A DNA stretch of 21,572 bases from a virus. Made by a program: the position numbers and the translations under genes. Positions 8,427-18,693 of this stretch are shown here, in pieces. Each line of letters begins with the position of its first letter. Within the stretch, counting starts at the first letter, position 1. The notes below the pieces were generated by a model. That model saw only the letters and a list, made by a program, of their open reading frames with translations, was not told the origin of the DNA and made no database searches. The stretch covers positions 1-21,572 of IMG/VR virus record IMGVR_UViG_3300005584_000048; one strand, given 5' to 3'.

Positions 8427-9221
8427 TTATCCCGTGAAAGTGGATTCGCCTACTATGTAGTTTCCACTATCATTTGCAAAATATGAACTGCTAATTGGAT
8501 ATGGGTCATTATATGAATTTAACCAAATCCCACCACCACTACCAGTTGCTGTAACTGAACTCGTATCTGCTGTTGTCCCATCATTTAAATAATGGGTAGC
8601 CAATGATTTATTTAGGACAACAAAGGGAACAGTTCTTGTGCTGTTAATACCAGTTTCAGAACTCATTGTAACTGAACTAGTATCTGCAGTAACACCATCA
8701 TTTAACAAGTGAGTTGCCAATGGTTTTTCTATTTCAGCATAAGGTACTGTTCTTGTGCTGTTAGATCCTGTTGTATCACTTAACGTAAATAAGTCACTAT
8801 CTAATGTTACCCCATCATACAAATAATGATTATATACTTGAGAGTTTAGTATCTTAGTGTTAGTTAATACACTAATACCATTTCTAGTTAATGAACTATA
8901 ACCATAAGATATTGTTGCTTCTGAAGGAGTAGCCGAACTAGTATCTGCCGTAGTACCATCGTTTAAAAAGTGAGTTGCCAATGGTTTAGATATATCAGCA
9001 TAAGGTACAGTTCTTGTACTATTAGTTCCAGTTTCAGAACTCATTGTTACTGAACTAGTATCTGCAGTAACACCATCATTTAAATAATGTGTAGCAATAG
9101 CCTTTGTGGTAACTAGAAATGGTACTGTTCTTGTTGATAATGTCCCAGTCTCAGAACTCATTGTAACAGTATTACTATCAGCTGTTACTCCATTATTTAA
9201 AAAGTGAGTAGCAATGGCTTT
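8427..9221 (-). repeat. Six tandem coding repeats at the gp7 C-terminus
   Basis: Units begin at gp7 residues 466, 505, 544, 588, 631 and 670, that is at 9221, 9104, 8987, 8855, 8726 and 8609 on the minus strand. Complete units are 39 residues (117 bases) with consensus KxLATHxLNDGVTADTSSVT, then MSSETGxNSTRTVPY. Units 3 and 4 are 44 and 43 residues and altered in the second half; unit 6 keeps only the first half before a different C-terminal end. DNA similarity between units is high, indicating recent duplication or ongoing homogenisation. Periodicity comes from protein-coding repeats. Confidence 0.9.
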
Positions 9222-10616
9222 AGAAACACCCTTTGTAGAAATAACAGCATCAGTTTGAACTTCATCTTGCTGCGCAAGTATCAAATACTTTAATGCAAAT
9301 TCTAATAAAGTGCCAGTGTCAAATTCGTTTCGAATATCAAACTCACCAAACAGTGCCATACCAGCTGGATGCAATAATGTTTTAACTGCAGAACGGTAAG
9401 TATCTAGACGCTCATCAATCTTAAGAACATACGCAAATGCCTGATAGTAACGACTGTCTTGAATAAAGATAGCGTCATCTAAGAAGCCATCATTCGTTGT
9501 ATAGTATCCTGGATATTTCGCCAAAGAGTTTAGCGTAACTTTAATAACTGCAGGTTCATCTGCATCTAAAATTGTATATTTGTTATCAACAAAGAATTCA
9601 CGAACAGTTTCACCTACATAAGTACCATCCCAATATGATGTTACGTTATAGTTTGTAGTATTGATAGTACCTTGCTCAAAGAAACCATTTAAAGTTTCTG
9701 AGAATGCAATTGCAGTGCTTGGAGATGAACCAGAAATAACTAAACCAGTGGAACCAGCACTTGTTGCAGAAACACCACCATACGGTAATAATGTTGCAGT
9801 AAAGTCTGTTGTATATCCAATACCATATTTAACAAAATCAAGTGATTCAATACCACCAGTTTCATTTACACGAGTAACCTTTAATACCGAACCAACACCC
9901 AGTCCATTTCTAACTTCATACAATTCACCAACTTTAAACTTCTTACCAGCACGTTGAATCTCAACCTTTGATGTAGTTGCCAATACCGTGGCATCAAATA
10001 TGTTACTATAACGAAGTTTATCACCAATGGTAATATTACCAAAGAATCTACGATCAATAAACAATTCGTAAATATTTTCAGAAATTTGAACTGAATTCTC
10101 TACTTCAATTTCAACATACTGTCTTTTATCAACCTGAATGCGAAGAATCTTTGTTGCAGTAACAACATCAACAATTTTACCAACAATATCTTCTGGATCA
10201 CCAGCATTAACATATACGAATACAGAAACGTCTTGATTCCACTTACCATCAGATGCACGTAGAATTTGTCTTGATGGATAATCAACTACAACTTCTTTAT
10301 TGAATAAGATTTTAAAAAGAAGTTTGAAAGATGCTTCAGAACCTTTTGCTAGGTACTGATCTTTGATTTTACTTAATAAGAATCTTTCATTAACAACCGT
10401 ATAAGGAATGTTGTGCGCCAACTCATTTTTAAAATATTGTATAAATGAGTCTAGAGTGCTATCTAAATCTCTTAGAGTTGTAAATTGTGGGTCATAATTC
10501 TGATCCAAAAACTCATAATATGCTTTTATGAAATCAATGAATGTGCTATAGTCTTCCCTTACAAACTCAGGAACCTGAGAAGGAAGAACTGATGAGATCT
10601 TTGGACGGGTAATCAT
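8427..10616 (-). CDS. 7: Baseplate wedge protein gp7-like, short N-terminus and repeated C-terminus
   Basis: The N-terminal 120 residues resemble the C-terminal part of T4 gp7: a helical segment with FIDFIKAYYEFLDQNYDPQF, a TLRDL element, then KGSEASFKLLFKILFNKEV where T4 has KGIEASYKFLFKVLYNEEV. Residues 416-420 (HPAGM) match the T4 HPVGF element. gp7 is the largest T4 wedge protein (1032 residues) and binds gp6 and gp8. This 729-residue homologue starts where T4 gp7 is already about two thirds through, so the large N-terminal portion is absent. Residues 260-280 carry one GIGYTT unit like those in gp8. Residues 466-729 are six tandem repeats. Its start overlaps the gp6 stop as TAATG, implying coupled translation, and it lies between gp6 and gp8 as expected for gene 7. 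Confidence 0.85.
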   Translation of the reverse strand: MITRPKISSVLPSQVPEFVREDYSTFIDFIKAYYEFLDQNYDPQFTTLRDLDSTLDSFIQYFKNELAHNIPYTVVNERFLLSKIKDQYLAKGSEASFKLLFKILFNKEVVVDYPSRQILRASDGKWNQDVSVFVYVNAGDPEDIVGKIVDVVTATKILRIQVDKRQYVEIEVENSVQISENIYELFIDRRFFGNITIGDKLRYSNIFDATVLATTSKVEIQRAGKKFKVGELYEVRNGLGVGSVLKVTRVNETGGIESLDFVKYGIGYTTDFTATLLPYGGVSATSAGSTGLVISGSSPSTAIAFSETLNGFFEQGTINTTNYNVTSYWDGTYVGETVREFFVDNKYTILDADEPAVIKVTLNSLAKYPGYYTTNDGFLDDAIFIQDSRYYQAFAYVLKIDERLDTYRSAVKTLLHPAGMALFGEFDIRNEFDTGTLLEFALKYLILAQQDEVQTDAVISTKGVSKAIATHFLNNGVTADSNTVTMSSETGTLSTRTVPFLVTTKAIATHYLNDGVTADTSSVTMSSETGTNSTRTVPYADISKPLATHFLNDGTTADTSSATPSEATISYGYSSLTRNGISVLTNTKILNSQVYNHYLYDGVTLDSDLFTLSDTTGSNSTRTVPYAEIEKPLATHLLNDGVTADTSSVTMSSETGINSTRTVPFVVLNKSLATHYLNDGTTADTSSVTATGSGGGIWLNSYNDPYPISSSYFANDSGNYIVGESTFTG

Positions 10617-12874: not shown

Positions 12875-13183
12875 TTATGCTGCAAATACGTTTGCGGATC
12901 CCTGAGTAATCACGTTATTTCCGTAACTATCTCCTATCCTACCAACACCCTTACCACCTATACTAACTGTTGCTGAAAACGAAGATAAAGTTGAAGTATC
13001 GGTGGAACATCCACCTTTTGGATGTGGAGATACCACATTTCCCTGAACTACGATAAGAATACCATTTGCATAAACATTATTACTATTAACTTCACCAACA
13101 CTAGTTTCCATGGGTGCACCGCATTGATATCCAGTTCCATCTGGGGACAATACTGTATCACCTGCTCTAGATACGGAAGGCAT
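12875..13183 (-). CDS. 5.4: PAAR-type spike tip protein (gp5.4-like)
   Basis: The start is taken at 13183, giving 102 residues (MPSVSRAGDTV...), because this ATG overlaps the upstream stop as TAATG; a longer in-frame version from 13252 would add non-conserved, Cys-rich residues inside the preceding gene. PAAR proteins sharpen the needle tip by capping the gp5 beta-helix and bind a metal through His and Cys. The pattern is visible: RAGDT near residue 6, a glycine-turn region with VVSPHPKGGCS near residues 50-60 that supplies candidate His and Cys ligands, and GVGRIGDSYGNNVITQGSAN toward the C-terminus. It lies between the gp5/186-residue pair and gp25. Confidence 0.92.
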   Translation of the reverse strand: MPSVSRAGDTVLSPDGTGYQCGAPMETSVGEVNSNNVYANGILIVVQGNVVSPHPKGGCSTDTSTLSSFSATVSIGGKGVGRIGDSYGNNVITQGSANVFAA

Positions 13184-13743
13184 TATTTTAATCCTATTGA
13201 TCTTGCAGAAGCAATAGCTGCCACTGCAGTAGAGTAAGACCAATGAACCCATTGGTATAAACTAATAGTTTCAGTTGTTGAAGATCCTCCAAGTATTGGA
13301 TCTGCTGGTATTGTTACATTAAACGTATATGTTTTCATTAAGCTAACTGGAGAAGGCATTTGATACTTCTCCAATGAAAAGAATGGTGTAGTGGTATCTT
13401 TCGGTAAAACTTGTAAACTTAAATCTGGAAGAACGAATCTATAATATTGATTAGTAAAAGGACTTGTTATTGGACCAGATATGCGAGCAACGCTGGCACT
13501 AATTTTAGTATAAGTCAACCCAATTGCACTCCATCCAAATGATGAAGTATTATTTGTTGCTGGTAGATAAGTAAATCCACTAACACCATCAGAATACTTA
13601 CCATCAAAAGTTAAATCAATGGAAAATGTAGTTTCTTCCAATACCGTTGGAAGATAGTTATTTAAATCTTCTACCTCATTAGTTTCATCTCCAGGAACTG
13701 AAGAAAATCCTGACTGGTTTGATTTAGTTATTCTGATGGCCAT
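13183..13743 (-). CDS. Unknown baseplate-associated protein between gp5 and PAAR
   Basis: I do not recognise this 186-residue protein by function. Its start overlaps the gp5 stop and its stop overlaps the PAAR start, both as TAATG, so the three are probably translated together. The sequence looks mostly beta: alternating hydrophobics in TTFSIDLTFDGKYSDG, then a MKTYTFNVTIPADP stretch, and near the end an aromatic motif YQWVHWSY followed by a short Ala-rich helix. No signal peptide or membrane segment is visible. Placement suggests a small spike-associated or hub-associated structural protein, possibly one that mediates between the gp5 spike and the PAAR tip; that is inference from context only. 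Confidence 0.8.
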   Translation of the reverse strand: MAIRITKSNQSGFSSVPGDETNEVEDLNNYLPTVLEETTFSIDLTFDGKYSDGVSGFTYLPATNNTSSFGWSAIGLTYTKISASVARISGPITSPFTNQYYRFVLPDLSLQVLPKDTTTPFFSLEKYQMPSPVSLMKTYTFNVTIPADPILGGSSTTETISLYQWVHWSYSTAVAAIASARSIGLK

Positions 13744-16700
13744 TATACCAATACAAATCCATTTTTAGGATAAGTTCCAGCAATAGTTTGATGGTTATTC
13801 ATTGTAAACATCATTCCCTGATTTCCTGTTTGTCTGTATGAGCAGTGAATCCAGAATTGAGAACCACCACCATCATATTCCATGATAATCTGATGCCATG
13901 AACCTAACTTCTTAACAATCTCACCTGCTTTCTTAAAGGTATCCGCTTTACCACCTTTGAAAGAAATATCAGCAGCACGTCCAGTAGGATGATCACCACC
14001 TTCTTTCTGATAACTACCATCAGCTTTCTTAATATTCAAGTCACCACCATCATTTGGACCAGTTGATGGTCTTCTAAATCCACTAGTAATTATAAAAGAA
14101 TCTCTTCCATATAATTCACAAATTGGTTCAAGTACGTTATCACATAGACGCTTCATATTAGCAACAATATCTTGTGGTGCTAACATTTCACCAGTAGCCA
14201 TTTGATATGATCTTCTTGGGATGCGAACACCACCTTTAGTTAAATCACCAAGAGTAAAGTTCTTGGATAATCTCATACCAGCATTAAATGCATCTGGGGA
14301 CATATTTAATATTGCGCTAACATCAGATTCTTTTCCAGTTGCTGCAGATTTAGCAGTTGGTTTAACTGTGTCTTTAGCAAAAGTAGTTGCAGCGTCTCCA
14401 GATTTTGATGTTTGATTCTGAGCAACTCTATCTGCTTTATATGCGGCTAAATCAGAACCTGGAGTTTTCTCTGGTGACTCAAAAGCAACTTCAGAACCAC
14501 GAGTTACCACTGGAGCAGATGCTACCTGAGAAACACCAGAAGTTCCACGTGTTTCAATTGGTAATTCTAAATCAGTTCTAACCGCAGTTCTGGCTGGTTT
14601 AGCTTCTTTAGCTGCAGTTGCAGATCCTGGAGCAGTAGAGTCGCCGTTATTTAATTGAATTGCAGTACCATCAATTGCAACAGCTGCACTAGAATTGATA
14701 CTTAATGGACCAGTTGAACCAAACGAACCATCACCAGCAGTTTTAAGATTTAAATTATCAGTACTTTCAATGTTCAATAGTTTATCGGATTTGATATTAA
14801 AAATATCTTCACTTTGCATATTCAACAAGCCACCAGATTTGATGTTTGTATCAGTACCACTTTCAATAAATACACCACCCTTAGTTTTATTATTAATGTT
14901 ACCTTCAGTTTGAACAAACGCTGTGCCATCACTCTTAATGTGAAGATCTGCACCAGATTCCATGTTGAAACCAGTTTTAGATATAAGGTTAAACTGCCCA
15001 GCAGATTCCATGTTAATCTTATTTGCTTTAAGATTAAACTCACCACCAATAGCCATATTAGTTGAACCACTTACATTAATGTTAGCGTCATTATATACAT
15101 TGATATTCATTGCGCCAGAAACTTCAAGATTAAAGACGTTATCTGTACGAACATTTAATGCGCCATCAACTGTTAAATTGCATGCACCTTTAATATAGAT
15201 AAAACCATTACGATCAATAATTTCATATCCATCACCCATGATTCTGTTGACTTGAGTTCCTGAAGCATCTATCTCAATGAATGTGCCAGCTTTGTGGTGG
15301 ATATTAATACGCTCAGCTTCTGGAGTATTATCAAACTCCAGTACATGTCCACACTCATACTGTTTTACATGGTTATAAGGATAGACAGCAGCATAAGGAA
15401 CTGGTGGTGAATTCCAAGTTCCACCATTTGCTATTCTTATTCCAGATTTTAAATCAGCTTGTTTTTCAGTAACAATTGTTCTTCCAAGATTATTACCAGA
15501 AGCAAGTCGGTTTGTGTCTTGCTCTTCTTGATACTTTGGATATACACCATTTGGATCTTGGAATCCTTTAGTTGGATCAACTAAACTACCATTACTAATA
15601 GTTCCATCTGGTCTGCGTTCTCCCATGGGAACTGCTTGTGGTTTAGATGGTTCACCTTGTAGTTTTACTAATAATGCTTTTGCTTGTCCAGCAGTGGAAC
15701 CAGCAATTTTCTCCATTTCTTTTACCAGCAATCTAGGATCAGCTGAAGATAATCCTAGATTAGCAACTAATCCACTAACAGTACCAGATGGATTATCAAT
15801 ACCAAGATTTGATGATATATCATTTAGGTTATTGCCATAACTAGTAAGAGTACTGGTGGCAGTTCCAGTTACACTTGTTAGAACCTTATTAATATCACCA
15901 TCTAAATTAACTTGCTTTGCTAAATTTGCAAATTCAGTTTGAGTGGCAGTTATTGATGATAGTAAAGATGCATCTAAATTACCAAGACCAGAAATACCTA
16001 ACTCACCAATTGCTGATCCAAGATCACCAAGTTTACCAAGATCGCCCAATCCGAGATTATTTAAATCACCAGCAGCAGTTAGTGCAGCTGCGTTAAATGC
16101 ATTACCAAGATCAGCAAAGTTTGTTAGATTACCAGCACCTAAGATATCCAAACCACCAAGAATATCTGGATTTGGAAATTCATTTGGAATATTAGTTCCA
16201 GCTGCAGTGGAAGATTCTGGAGGAGTTGTGGTTGAATCATCTGGTGGTAGTGATTTTCTTACACCAGAAAAATCAGATCCCTTTTCAACTTTATCGCCAC
16301 CCGCAATTGCTACTGTTGGTGAAGGATTGTTTGCGTCGTTTCGAAATTCCCATTCTTGTAATAGGTTTTCTTTAACAGTATCGAATTTAGTGGCAACTCT
16401 ATGTCCAGCTTTATAGTAGTTACCTTTCTCACCACCATATGGGAATCCAGGATTGTATGGATCTTCATATGTAGGAAATTCTGCTGCAAGTGCTTCACCA
16501 GCATCTTTTAATAACTTTTCATCAGTTTTAGAAGCAGTTTTAAAATACGCAAATAGCTTCGGACGTTTACGAGCAACAATATATTCTTGACAAATAAGAT
16601 CCTGTGTTGACTCACTGAATGTTTGATTTACATCTATGTTAAGTGCTTGAATCGCATTCTTTAAAGTTACTGGATCGATTTGATACTTACCAACTGAAGA

Positions 16701-17357
16701 AAGTTTATCTGGACTTCCAGCTGGCATTGATTGTTTTTCCATGATGTCTTTAATTGTCATCTTAGACAATTTGACATTACCACTACCAGTTGCTACAGAA
16801 GAAGTTCCTTGTGGACCATTTGAAGATTTTGTAAAGGTATCATAACTACCCGCAACTGTCTCACCACTCTTAATAAGTTTAGCAAGTGGACCAATAACAT
16901 TTTCTGTGCTTACAACTTTGCCAGGTGGTAATTTATCTGATCCAACTGAACCACCAGATGAGACTGTCGGTGGAGGTGGAGCATTGGCTGCTCTTTCTGG
17001 TTCTCCCCTAAATTGATAATTATTAACAACTAGCGGAGTTTGTACATTACCACCGTCAAAGGCATCTTCTTTTTGAGAAACTCCCGTAAGAGTTCCCATC
17101 ATAATTGGAATCTGCTCGTCTACATCCATGAAGAAAATTAATACCCATGTACCAGGAACTGGTCCAACTGGTGAACTACCAACACCAGAAGAGCCAGCTT
17201 CAGTGATGGGTAATACAGGTTGAGCCCATGGCAGATCTTTCGTTGGAAGTTCAGTTTTATCTTCAGTATGAAGACCAACAACACGAACTTTACAACGTCC
17301 TACTTTTAAAGGATCATCTCTGTCCTCTACGCATCCAGTATAAAACTTTTTAAACAT
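13743..17357 (-). CDS. 5: Central hub/spike protein gp5 with two predicted cell-wall lytic domains
   Basis: In T4, trimeric gp5 is the needle: OB-fold, lysozyme, beta-helix. This protein is 1204 residues (T4: 575). Residues 1-115 are the OB-fold (TGCVEDRDDPLKVGRCKVRV, GTWVLIFFMD, PIMMGTLTG). Residues about 155-335 look like the lambda R transglycosylase/COG4678 family, with a SGE motif (candidate catalytic Glu166), SSVGKYQI at 220-227 matching the lambda GAGRYQL element, and a QD at 252-253. Residues 395-465 are Leu/Gly-rich. Residues 665-905 are the beta-helix, with twelve exact octads at 781-876 (pattern as in FNMESGAD, FNIKSDKL). An Ala/Thr/Pro/Lys linker follows. Residues about 1028-1180 are an M15-type zinc peptidase with SGFRRP, HPTGRAAD (His1123, Asp1130) and WIH (His1171). 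It starts inside the last codons of gp27 (8-base overlap). Confidence 0.93.
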   Translation of the reverse strand: MFKKFYTGCVEDRDDPLKVGRCKVRVVGLHTEDKTELPTKDLPWAQPVLPITEAGSSGVGSSPVGPVPGTWVLIFFMDVDEQIPIMMGTLTGVSQKEDAFDGGNVQTPLVVNNYQFRGEPERAANAPPPPTVSSGGSVGSDKLPPGKVVSTENVIGPLAKLIKSGETVAGSYDTFTKSSNGPQGTSSVATGSGNVKLSKMTIKDIMEKQSMPAGSPDKLSSVGKYQIDPVTLKNAIQALNIDVNQTFSESTQDLICQEYIVARKRPKLFAYFKTASKTDEKLLKDAGEALAAEFPTYEDPYNPGFPYGGEKGNYYKAGHRVATKFDTVKENLLQEWEFRNDANNPSPTVAIAGGDKVEKGSDFSGVRKSLPPDDSTTTPPESSTAAGTNIPNEFPNPDILGGLDILGAGNLTNFADLGNAFNAAALTAAGDLNNLGLGDLGKLGDLGSAIGELGISGLGNLDASLLSSITATQTEFANLAKQVNLDGDINKVLTSVTGTATSTLTSYGNNLNDISSNLGIDNPSGTVSGLVANLGLSSADPRLLVKEMEKIAGSTAGQAKALLVKLQGEPSKPQAVPMGERRPDGTISNGSLVDPTKGFQDPNGVYPKYQEEQDTNRLASGNNLGRTIVTEKQADLKSGIRIANGGTWNSPPVPYAAVYPYNHVKQYECGHVLEFDNTPEAERINIHHKAGTFIEIDASGTQVNRIMGDGYEIIDRNGFIYIKGACNLTVDGALNVRTDNVFNLEVSGAMNINVYNDANINVSGSTNMAIGGEFNLKANKINMESAGQFNLISKTGFNMESGADLHIKSDGTAFVQTEGNINNKTKGGVFIESGTDTNIKSGGLLNMQSEDIFNIKSDKLLNIESTDNLNLKTAGDGSFGSTGPLSINSSAAVAIDGTAIQLNNGDSTAPGSATAAKEAKPARTAVRTDLELPIETRGTSGVSQVASAPVVTRGSEVAFESPEKTPGSDLAAYKADRVAQNQTSKSGDAATTFAKDTVKPTAKSAATGKESDVSAILNMSPDAFNAGMRLSKNFTLGDLTKGGVRIPRRSYQMATGEMLAPQDIVANMKRLCDNVLEPICELYGRDSFIITSGFRRPSTGPNDGGDLNIKKADGSYQKEGGDHPTGRAADISFKGGKADTFKKAGEIVKKLGSWHQIIMEYDGGGSQFWIHCSYRQTGNQGMMFTMNNHQTIAGTYPKNGFVLV

Positions 17358-18693
17358 TGCTTAACCCATGATAAGAATCTTTGATTAATTGCATATGGCA
17401 CTCATGATGTTTTCTATCAATCACATGATTAATAGTAGCTATTAAATAAAATCCAGATATAGTGTTATCTAAACTATCAGTATCACTGTCAGATTTTTGT
17501 ATAGGTGCATTCTTATAACTTTTTACCCTAACTTTATCGCCAACAGTATAATCAGTCCTCCCCGCAACTACAATATTAATCTTAAATGCTTCTGCCATCT
17601 TCAATCTAGACATACGTTCTAGTCTCATAGTTACGCTAGTAACATCATCCCACTCATCCCCAAACATCTTTGAATGCACAACATCATTAAACATAACTCC
17701 TTTATTTGTTGCAATCAACTTAGATGTAAACAATGCAGTTGGGTTTAAATGAGTTTCTTTAGGATTAAACTTAGAACTCGGTTGATATGTAATTCTTTTA
17801 AATTTCTTTTTAGTAATATCAAAAAACATTATCGTAGAACCATAGGCTCCACTCATAACATTGTCCATGTAGTTTTGACTAGACACAATCTCAAACTCTT
17901 TAATAGATTGGTATTGTTTTAATATATTTCTACTAGATCCACCACCAGGTTTTATATCATCCTGCACTTGATTATTTAAAAAAATCATTTTTGGTCCATT
18001 ATTGCCGTTTACATTTAGTTCATCTAACGAAATAAAATTAAACCCATATCTATTTTCAAAAAAGATATATGTTGGATTACCTTTACTATCAAGAGCACGA
18101 TCAGCAAGGTAATTTATATTTTTAATTGGCGACCAGTAGTTAGAAACGTATTTTGTTTTATTTGCAACTAAAGTACATTTTACATTTTTCTTAAAATCTT
18201 GCTGTGGACCTTGTAACCATGTACCAACAATTTGCGGTACTATCTCACGAATGTTTCCTTCAAATGCTTTTGAAATTTTTGTATTCAGATCAGTTACCGC
18301 TTCAACAGCAATAAAGTGTAGTTGATAAACTACATTTCTATCTGCTAACTTCTCACGATCAGATATTTTGTAGATATAAAATCTTGCATTTATCACATCA
18401 GCTGGTTGTGACTTGTCGAATCCAGGAGTGAAAATCCTAATAGTTACTACTTCTTCTCCAATGAAAGGAAAGTTAGCAACAAAGTCAAGTGATTCGCTAA
18501 AGATTAAAGAGCCAGACATGAATGGCGCAAATAGATCTTCATATATTTGAATGGTTAGTAATTGATTTGTTACGTTAAATGTCTTACCATTTGCAAGAGA
18601 TTTTATTTCAATTCTCCCAACATTAATGTCTCCAGCCTGTCTGATTTTATCAGAACTAAATCCCTTTGATGCAGTACCAAGAAAATCAAACAT
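17350..18693 (-). CDS. 27: Baseplate hub protein gp27
   Basis: gp27 forms the trimeric ring that holds gp5 and supports the tail tube; T4 gp27 is 391 residues, this one 447. The N-terminal segment with RIEIKSLANGKTFNVTNQ and YEDLFAPFMSGSLIFSES, and the C-terminal GFYLIATINHVIDRKHHECH, are typical of the T4-like gp27 family. In T4 gene 27 is not next to gene 5; here the two partners of the same complex overlap by eight bases, which would favour balanced synthesis. It begins two bases after the gp53 stop. No unusual residues or breaks. Confidence 0.92.
   Translation of the reverse strand: MFDFLGTASKGFSSDKIRQAGDINVGRIEIKSLANGKTFNVTNQLLTIQIYEDLFAPFMSGSLIFSESLDFVANFPFIGEEVVTIRIFTPGFDKSQPADVINARFYIYKISDREKLADRNVVYQLHFIAVEAVTDLNTKISKAFEGNIREIVPQIVGTWLQGPQQDFKKNVKCTLVANKTKYVSNYWSPIKNINYLADRALDSKGNPTYIFFENRYGFNFISLDELNVNGNNGPKMIFLNNQVQDDIKPGGGSSRNILKQYQSIKEFEIVSSQNYMDNVMSGAYGSTIMFFDITKKKFKRITYQPSSKFNPKETHLNPTALFTSKLIATNKGVMFNDVVHSKMFGDEWDDVTSVTMRLERMSRLKMAEAFKINIVVAGRTDYTVGDKVRVKSYKNAPIQKSDSDTDSLDNTISGFYLIATINHVIDRKHHECHMQLIKDSYHGLSNV

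Follow-up and report, generated by a model that had tools for sequence, protein, structure and literature searches.

The DNA analysed here (the window) comprises positions 1 to 21,572 of the IMG/VR record IMGVR_UViG_3300005584_000048, from an uncultured virus of bacteria. It encodes a gp5-type central spike with two different predicted wall enzymes, a lysozyme-like domain near the base and an M15 peptidase domain beyond the helix tip of the needle. The protein is probably a modular two-enzyme version of the cell-puncturing needle gp5 of phage T4, for which a trimeric geometry, an order of action and enzymatic activity are proposed below. The open reading frame (ORF) starts with ATG, lies on the minus strand, encodes 1204 amino acids (aa) and has exactly the coordinates at which a preliminary description of the window had placed a gp5 needle. 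It matches the Pfam family Gp5_OB (PF06714, 4e-21), phrog_430 of PHROGs ('baseplate hub subunit and tail lysozyme', 1e-84) and the T4 gp5 structures in the PDB (1e-30), and a profile of its helix region (HELIX) matches residues 375–567 of T4 gp5 at 1.6e-42. Judged from these matches, the ORF is a T4-type gp5 central spike, with an OB domain and a beta-helix homologous to those of T4 gp5.

The C-terminal domain can safely be assigned to the M15 family as a predicted peptidase. Residues 1005–1187 match phrog_894, annotated as 'endolysin', at 4e-17. The A6 profile, built from 55 relatives, matches the zinc D-Ala-D-Ala peptidase 1LBU at 7.3e-7, with His1123 and Asp1130 aligned to its HxxxxxxD ligands, and the next matches are a D,D-dipeptidase/carboxypeptidase and then hedgehog proteins of the same superfamily. 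PF08291 was found in 24 of the 55 relatives (best 3.9e-23). The AlphaFold2 (AF2) model of the domain has a predicted local distance difference test score (pLDDT) of 94.4, and its top PDB match in Foldseek is again 1LBU (prob 0.99, E 0.023), followed by hedgehog, a LAS relative, and VanXYc. The preliminary description had proposed this family together with His1123, Asp1130 and His1171, all of which are at the positions given. With Glu1160 they form the HxxxxxxD...E...H active-site pattern of M15/LAS enzymes, and these four residues, Ser1092, Arg1095, Gln1156 and Trp1169 are invariant in all 55 relatives. Zinc binding, bond specificity and any catalytic activity of the predicted peptidase are inferred.

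The N-terminal domain (NLYS) is a probable rather than proven member of the lambda-R-like lysozyme/transglycosylase family. Its candidate catalytic Glu166 and the SSVGKYQI motif at residues 220–227 are found where the preliminary description had located them. The lambda-R-like identity claimed there stands at the family level, but not in direct fold comparison with the PDB, in which the matches were non-significant. Residues 155–345 of the window protein alone match mainly unnamed PHROGs. Among 54 relatives of the domain, all match phrog_30077 and 46 match the phrog_90 endolysins (best 7e-14); lambda R itself is a strong member of phrog_90 (4e-62) and covers the same profile region as these relatives. 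Compared directly with lambda R by hhalign, the domain aligns in register, but the match is weak (E 0.0036, probability only 9%). The family carries the signature GES(G/A)xxxY(N/D)A(F)NRG followed by LFAVGKYQxIPxTL, and G223, Y225 and Q226 are invariant in 65 of 65 rows of the alignment. The AF2 model (pLDDT 83.8) places Glu166 directly past the first helix. Among predicted viral structures in BFVD, the model matches another gp5 and several phage lysins, with endolysin matches to 7.7e-9, and its non-significant PDB matches are mostly lysozyme-fold enzymes (MltF, pesticin, Slt70 and lysozymes). A phmmer search of the domain alone against the PDB gave one match, judged to be chance. Another match, of the A3 profile to 11mn ('66 kDa protein', 1.5e-4), fell to 0.07 with the larger A5 profile and was not relied on.

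The combination of both domains is not restricted to the window. When IMG/VR was scanned with profiles built in this analysis, gp5s with all four modules (OB, lambda-R-like, helix and M15) were found as 27 distinct intact ORFs from many metagenomes, forming 22 clusters at 90% identity. Each of the two domains has homology to an independent family, and 27 gp5s contain the pair; their combination is therefore neither chance nor an assembly chimera, and chance motifs were ruled out by the profile evidence and this recurrence. In the tree of the lysozyme-like domain, a branch with 100/97 support separates the gp5-borne copies from those on other proteins, which is consistent with a single capture into gp5. 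Cyanophages such as Syn19, S-PRM1, Sf-CH1b and S-SZBM1 carry an NLYS-type domain on a separate hub-cluster protein. On L155 (2850–3833, 3802–5943) and L156 (5614–6597, 6566–8707) gp5 is divided over two ORFs; the break lies between the lambda-R-like domain and the helix, near the T4 maturation cleavage site, and resembles that in phage Melnitz.

The preliminary description had also placed the lysozyme-like domain at the insertion position of the T4 lysozyme, which is not the case. In T4 gp5, the GFxDPxGxYP element (110–139) comes directly after the OB domain and before the lysozyme (174–339), whereas in the window protein the lysozyme-like domain precedes this element (598–619), which runs on into the helix. 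The Gp5_OB Pfam model is accordingly unbroken in T4 but split in the window, with model positions 10–78 at residues 32–100 and 75–106 at about 595–627. In Milchi gp5, which has no insert, the element directly follows the OB domain. In L015 and BUCT-ZZ01, as in the window family, the inserted enzyme comes first, and the element is continuous with the helix. The T4 lysozyme and the enzymes of these phages thus occupy non-equivalent sites, which argues for separate insertions. The window protein remains a gp5 by homology, but not a T4-style tail lysozyme with the insert between GFxDP and helix.

Among related phages, the base slot is exchangeable, and what stays constant and strongly conserved in the window gp5 family is the tip peptidase. 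Together with a C-terminal M15 domain, the OB-side slot holds GH24 in L015, GH19 in Synechococcus phage BUCT-ZZ01 and PF18013 in Caulobacter phage Cr30. No base enzyme was seen in the gp5 of pf16, and in Melnitz a VanY-like domain is encoded by a separate ORF that also bears OB. Milchi and PA5oct instead have M15 as part of their PAAR protein, a fusion that has been seen by mass spectrometry in PA5oct; these fusions independently indicate the needle tip as the working place of M15. A different order occurs in the gp5 of Ochrobactrum phage vB_OspM_OC (L024:2941–5364), in which M15 and PF18013 both stand before the helix. No paper on an M15 domain on gp5 was found in the open-licence literature, and the two-enzyme needle is a recurring but little-noticed design.

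For such a needle we propose the following action. Three gp5 copies would form the spike, with an OB collar and a triple beta-helix capped by the separate PAAR protein, and the PAAR-capped trimer would pierce the outer membrane. The M15 domains, held past the helix tip by a flexible low-complexity tether of about 115 residues, would be the first parts to meet the wall, where they would cut stem peptides or cross-links. The lambda-R-like base domain, which follows the OB domain and precedes GFxDP, would engage the glycan strands later as the tube advances. One needle could in this way act at both bond types.

Several points weigh against two active enzymes on the window needle. Both enzyme assignments lean on relatives: the window M15 domain scores 16 bits with PF08291, below the curated Pfam cut-off of 23.2, the window NLYS has no phrog_90 match at 1e-3, and its model has no significant PDB fold match, the best being 8KEA, the A-1(L) baseplate (E 0.054). 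Position 166 is Asp in the sister gp5s L003, L005 and L011, and the Glu segment is deleted in L148 and L149, so glycan cutting may be absent in the window gp5. The active-site surround has also changed. When the window clade was compared at positions invariant in 12 other lineages, 14 of 69 positions had changed in the N-domain, 8 of 84 in the helix, 1 of 47 in the OB domain and 0 of 54 in M15 (Fisher test, p 0.0002 for N-domain versus M15 and p 0.07 for N-domain versus helix). The N-domain changes include S167T, G168V, N176T, R177K, G178S, F220S, A221S and I228D, and many of the changed positions cluster at 167–178 and 220–228, near Glu166 and GKYQ; relatives of the L008 type retain ESG, NRG and FAVGKYQ. 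The ratio of nonsynonymous to synonymous substitutions (dN/dS) indicates purifying selection in every module, weakest in the tether, and is 0.14–0.22 for the N-domain against close relatives. Since all modules are under constraint, the erosion of the N-domain is positional and not a general loss of constraint, and the active site in the window clade looks partly eroding. For the Glu state in gp5-borne versus other copies, about two events account for the difference, and it was given no statistical weight. The Glu-bearing segment is gone in L148, L149 and L150 with the rest of the N-domain kept; M15 is kept in L149 and L150, and L148 ends before M15. Glycan cutting, which the preliminary description had attributed to the needle, is therefore plausible but doubtful, and forms the weaker half of the two-enzyme claim.

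These changes are also what would be expected if only the tip M15 cuts, with the lambda-R-like domain of the window clade being catalytically dead or nearly so and serving as a wall-binding or spacer module. This is a serious possibility, though we do not favor it. The window protein retains Glu166 and GKYQ, and the low dN/dS places the N-domain under constraint. Asp can also partly substitute for the catalytic acid in some enzymes. A more specific and somewhat less likely version starts from the base slot as an exchangeable cartridge, which in the window clade would have lost its cutting and become a wall-docking part, entry being left to three tethered zinc peptidases at the tip. If true, the phage would take a peptidase-first route through the wall of its host, which is presumably Gram-negative.

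A role of M15 in assembly rather than wall entry, for example in cutting gp5 or a partner like a maturation protease, is improbable. Maturation of T4 gp5 does involve a cut between lysozyme and helix (PMC7650644), and the two halves encoded separately in L155, L156 and Melnitz meet at this cleavage junction. However, the relatives of the M15 domain are the stand-alone phage 'endolysin' family phrog_894 and D-Ala-D-Ala peptidases, fusion to PAAR also brings the domain to the tip without a link to gp5, and relatives with a gp5 gene that is itself split still keep it. Finally, although broken versions of the ORF occur on a few contigs (L132, L133 and L142), the idea that the ORF is an artefact of assembly or of a frameshift, or a recombinant that arose only once, is refuted by the recurrence of the intact ORF and by the purifying selection in every module, and its likelihood is negligible.

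The two-enzyme gp5 is encoded in a T4-like baseplate block, which contains the tail tube cap, gp53, the hub protein, gp5, a 186-aa orphan, PAAR, gp25 and gp6 and from which the head-closure and DNA-end-protector genes diverge. The 186-aa ORF is present downstream of gp5 in most relatives and has no match among phage records, PHROGs or Pfam; it may be a needle-tip partner or adaptor. The Gly/Ser/Leu-rich linker is found in long gp5s (1140–1350 aa) and is nearly absent in the relatives of about 950 aa (L143–L145, L153 and L154), beside none of which the 186-aa ORF was seen. The window gp6 is about 42% identical to gp6 of the Pelagibacter phages Melnitz and Mosig, and this likeness suggests a Gram-negative host. 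A 729-aa ORF in the baseplate region (8427–10616, minus strand) has a C-terminal part of repeats like ATHFLNDGVTADTSSVTMSSETGTNSTRTVPF, at 8550–8763. An NCBIfam search gave no hits.

Table 1. Features of the window gp5 and neighbouring genes (window positions).
Feature	Position	Strand	Basis or remark
gp5-type central spike/needle ORF	13743..17357	-	PF06714, phrog_430, PDB T4 gp5 matches
OB-fold domain, residues 1-105	17043..17357	-	PF06714 model 10-78 at residues 32-100; T4 gp5 OB alignment
Probable lambda-R-like lysozyme/transglycosylase-family domain (NLYS), residues 155-345	16323..16895	-	phrog_30077, phrog_90, AF2 model
Candidate catalytic Glu166	16860..16862	-	Glu in every homologue outside gp5
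SSVGKYQI motif, residues 220-227	16677..16700	-	family consensus FAVGKYQ
Gly/Ser/Leu-rich linker, residues 351-590 (240 aa)	15588..16307	-	length variable among relatives
Conserved GFQDPNGVYPKYQEEQDTNRLA element (GFxDPxGxYP), residues 598-619	15501..15566	-	marks insert as upstream, unlike T4
Triple-stranded beta-helix needle, residues ~640-895	14673..15440	-	HELIX profile; PDB matches
Low-complexity tether from helix to peptidase, residues 896-1010	14328..14672	-	highest dN/dS of all modules
Predicted M15/LAS zinc metallopeptidase domain, residues 1020-1204	13746..14300	-	phrog_894, 1LBU, PF08291
His1123, predicted zinc ligand, aligned with 1LBU His154	13989..13991	-	invariant 55/55
Asp1130, predicted zinc ligand, aligned with 1LBU Asp161	13968..13970	-	invariant 55/55
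Glu1160, likely general base, absent from the preliminary description	13878..13880	-	invariant 55/55
His1171 (WIH), predicted third zinc ligand	13845..13847	-	invariant 55/55
Tail hub protein, gp27 position	17350..18693	-	phrog_350
Conserved 186-aa orphan ORF, overlaps gp5 stop (ATGA), PAAR next	13183..13743	-	
PAAR tip protein, T4 gp5.4-like, expected helix cap	12875..13252	-	phrog_281 6e-18; PF05488 6e-5, below cut-off

Phages of Gram-negative bacteria are usually described as opening the wall via one tail glycosidase. The gp5 family described here suggests that a spike can itself bear two wall enzymes, of which the tip peptidase is constant and the glycan enzyme is exchanged among unrelated folds and inserted elsewhere than in T4. 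The natural series of GH24, GH19, PF18013, lambda-R-like and no base enzyme lends itself to testing which bond has to be cut by a phage needle.

The dual-hydrolase hub of cyanophage A-1(L), added in 2024, is the nearest precedent in the literature. The gp15 of this myophage (PDB 8KEA) is a hub protein that forms trimers and has a lysozyme domain as well as glycan- and peptide-cutting activities, activity being reported for the endoglucanase and peptidase domains (PMC10966104). Like the two-enzyme gp5 proposed for the window, it joins a peptidase and a glycan hydrolase on one protein, and among the weak PDB fold matches of the window N-domain the A-1(L) baseplate entry ranks first; the A-1(L) enzymes are on the hub ring, whereas those predicted for the window are on the spike. 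The virion lysins CwlP, HydH5 and phi11 gp49 similarly carry two wall-cutting domains on one virion protein, but belong to siphoviruses of Gram-positive hosts, and a 2017 review listed two-domain virion lysins for Gram-positive phages only and none from Gram-negative phages (PMC5380687).

The closest cultured counterparts, the gp5s of Cr30 and BUCT-ZZ01, have the common plan of OB domain, glycan-cutting domain, beta-helix and C-terminal M15, with a base enzyme unrelated to that of the window (PF18013 tail lysozyme and GH19, respectively). T4 gp5 shares the OB domain, the GFxDPxGxYP element, the triple-stranded beta-helix and a baseplate cluster with PAAR and gp6 downstream; it has one GH24 lysozyme after GFxDP and no peptidase, whereas the window protein has a different lysozyme-like family before GFxDP and M15 after the helix. 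Lambda R, the lambda lysozyme and lytic transglycosylase, shares with the N-domain family phrog_90, the GxGxYQ motif, a Glu soon after the first helix and the F..xxQD motif, but is a free endolysin, whereas the window domain is part of a virion spike with an altered active-site surround. The same HxxxxxxD...E...H site and fold are found in 1LBU, the M15 zinc D-Ala-D-Ala carboxypeptidase of Streptomyces albus G, and in the phage M15_3 endolysins of phrog_894; unlike these enzymes, the window M15 domain is tethered at the needle tip.

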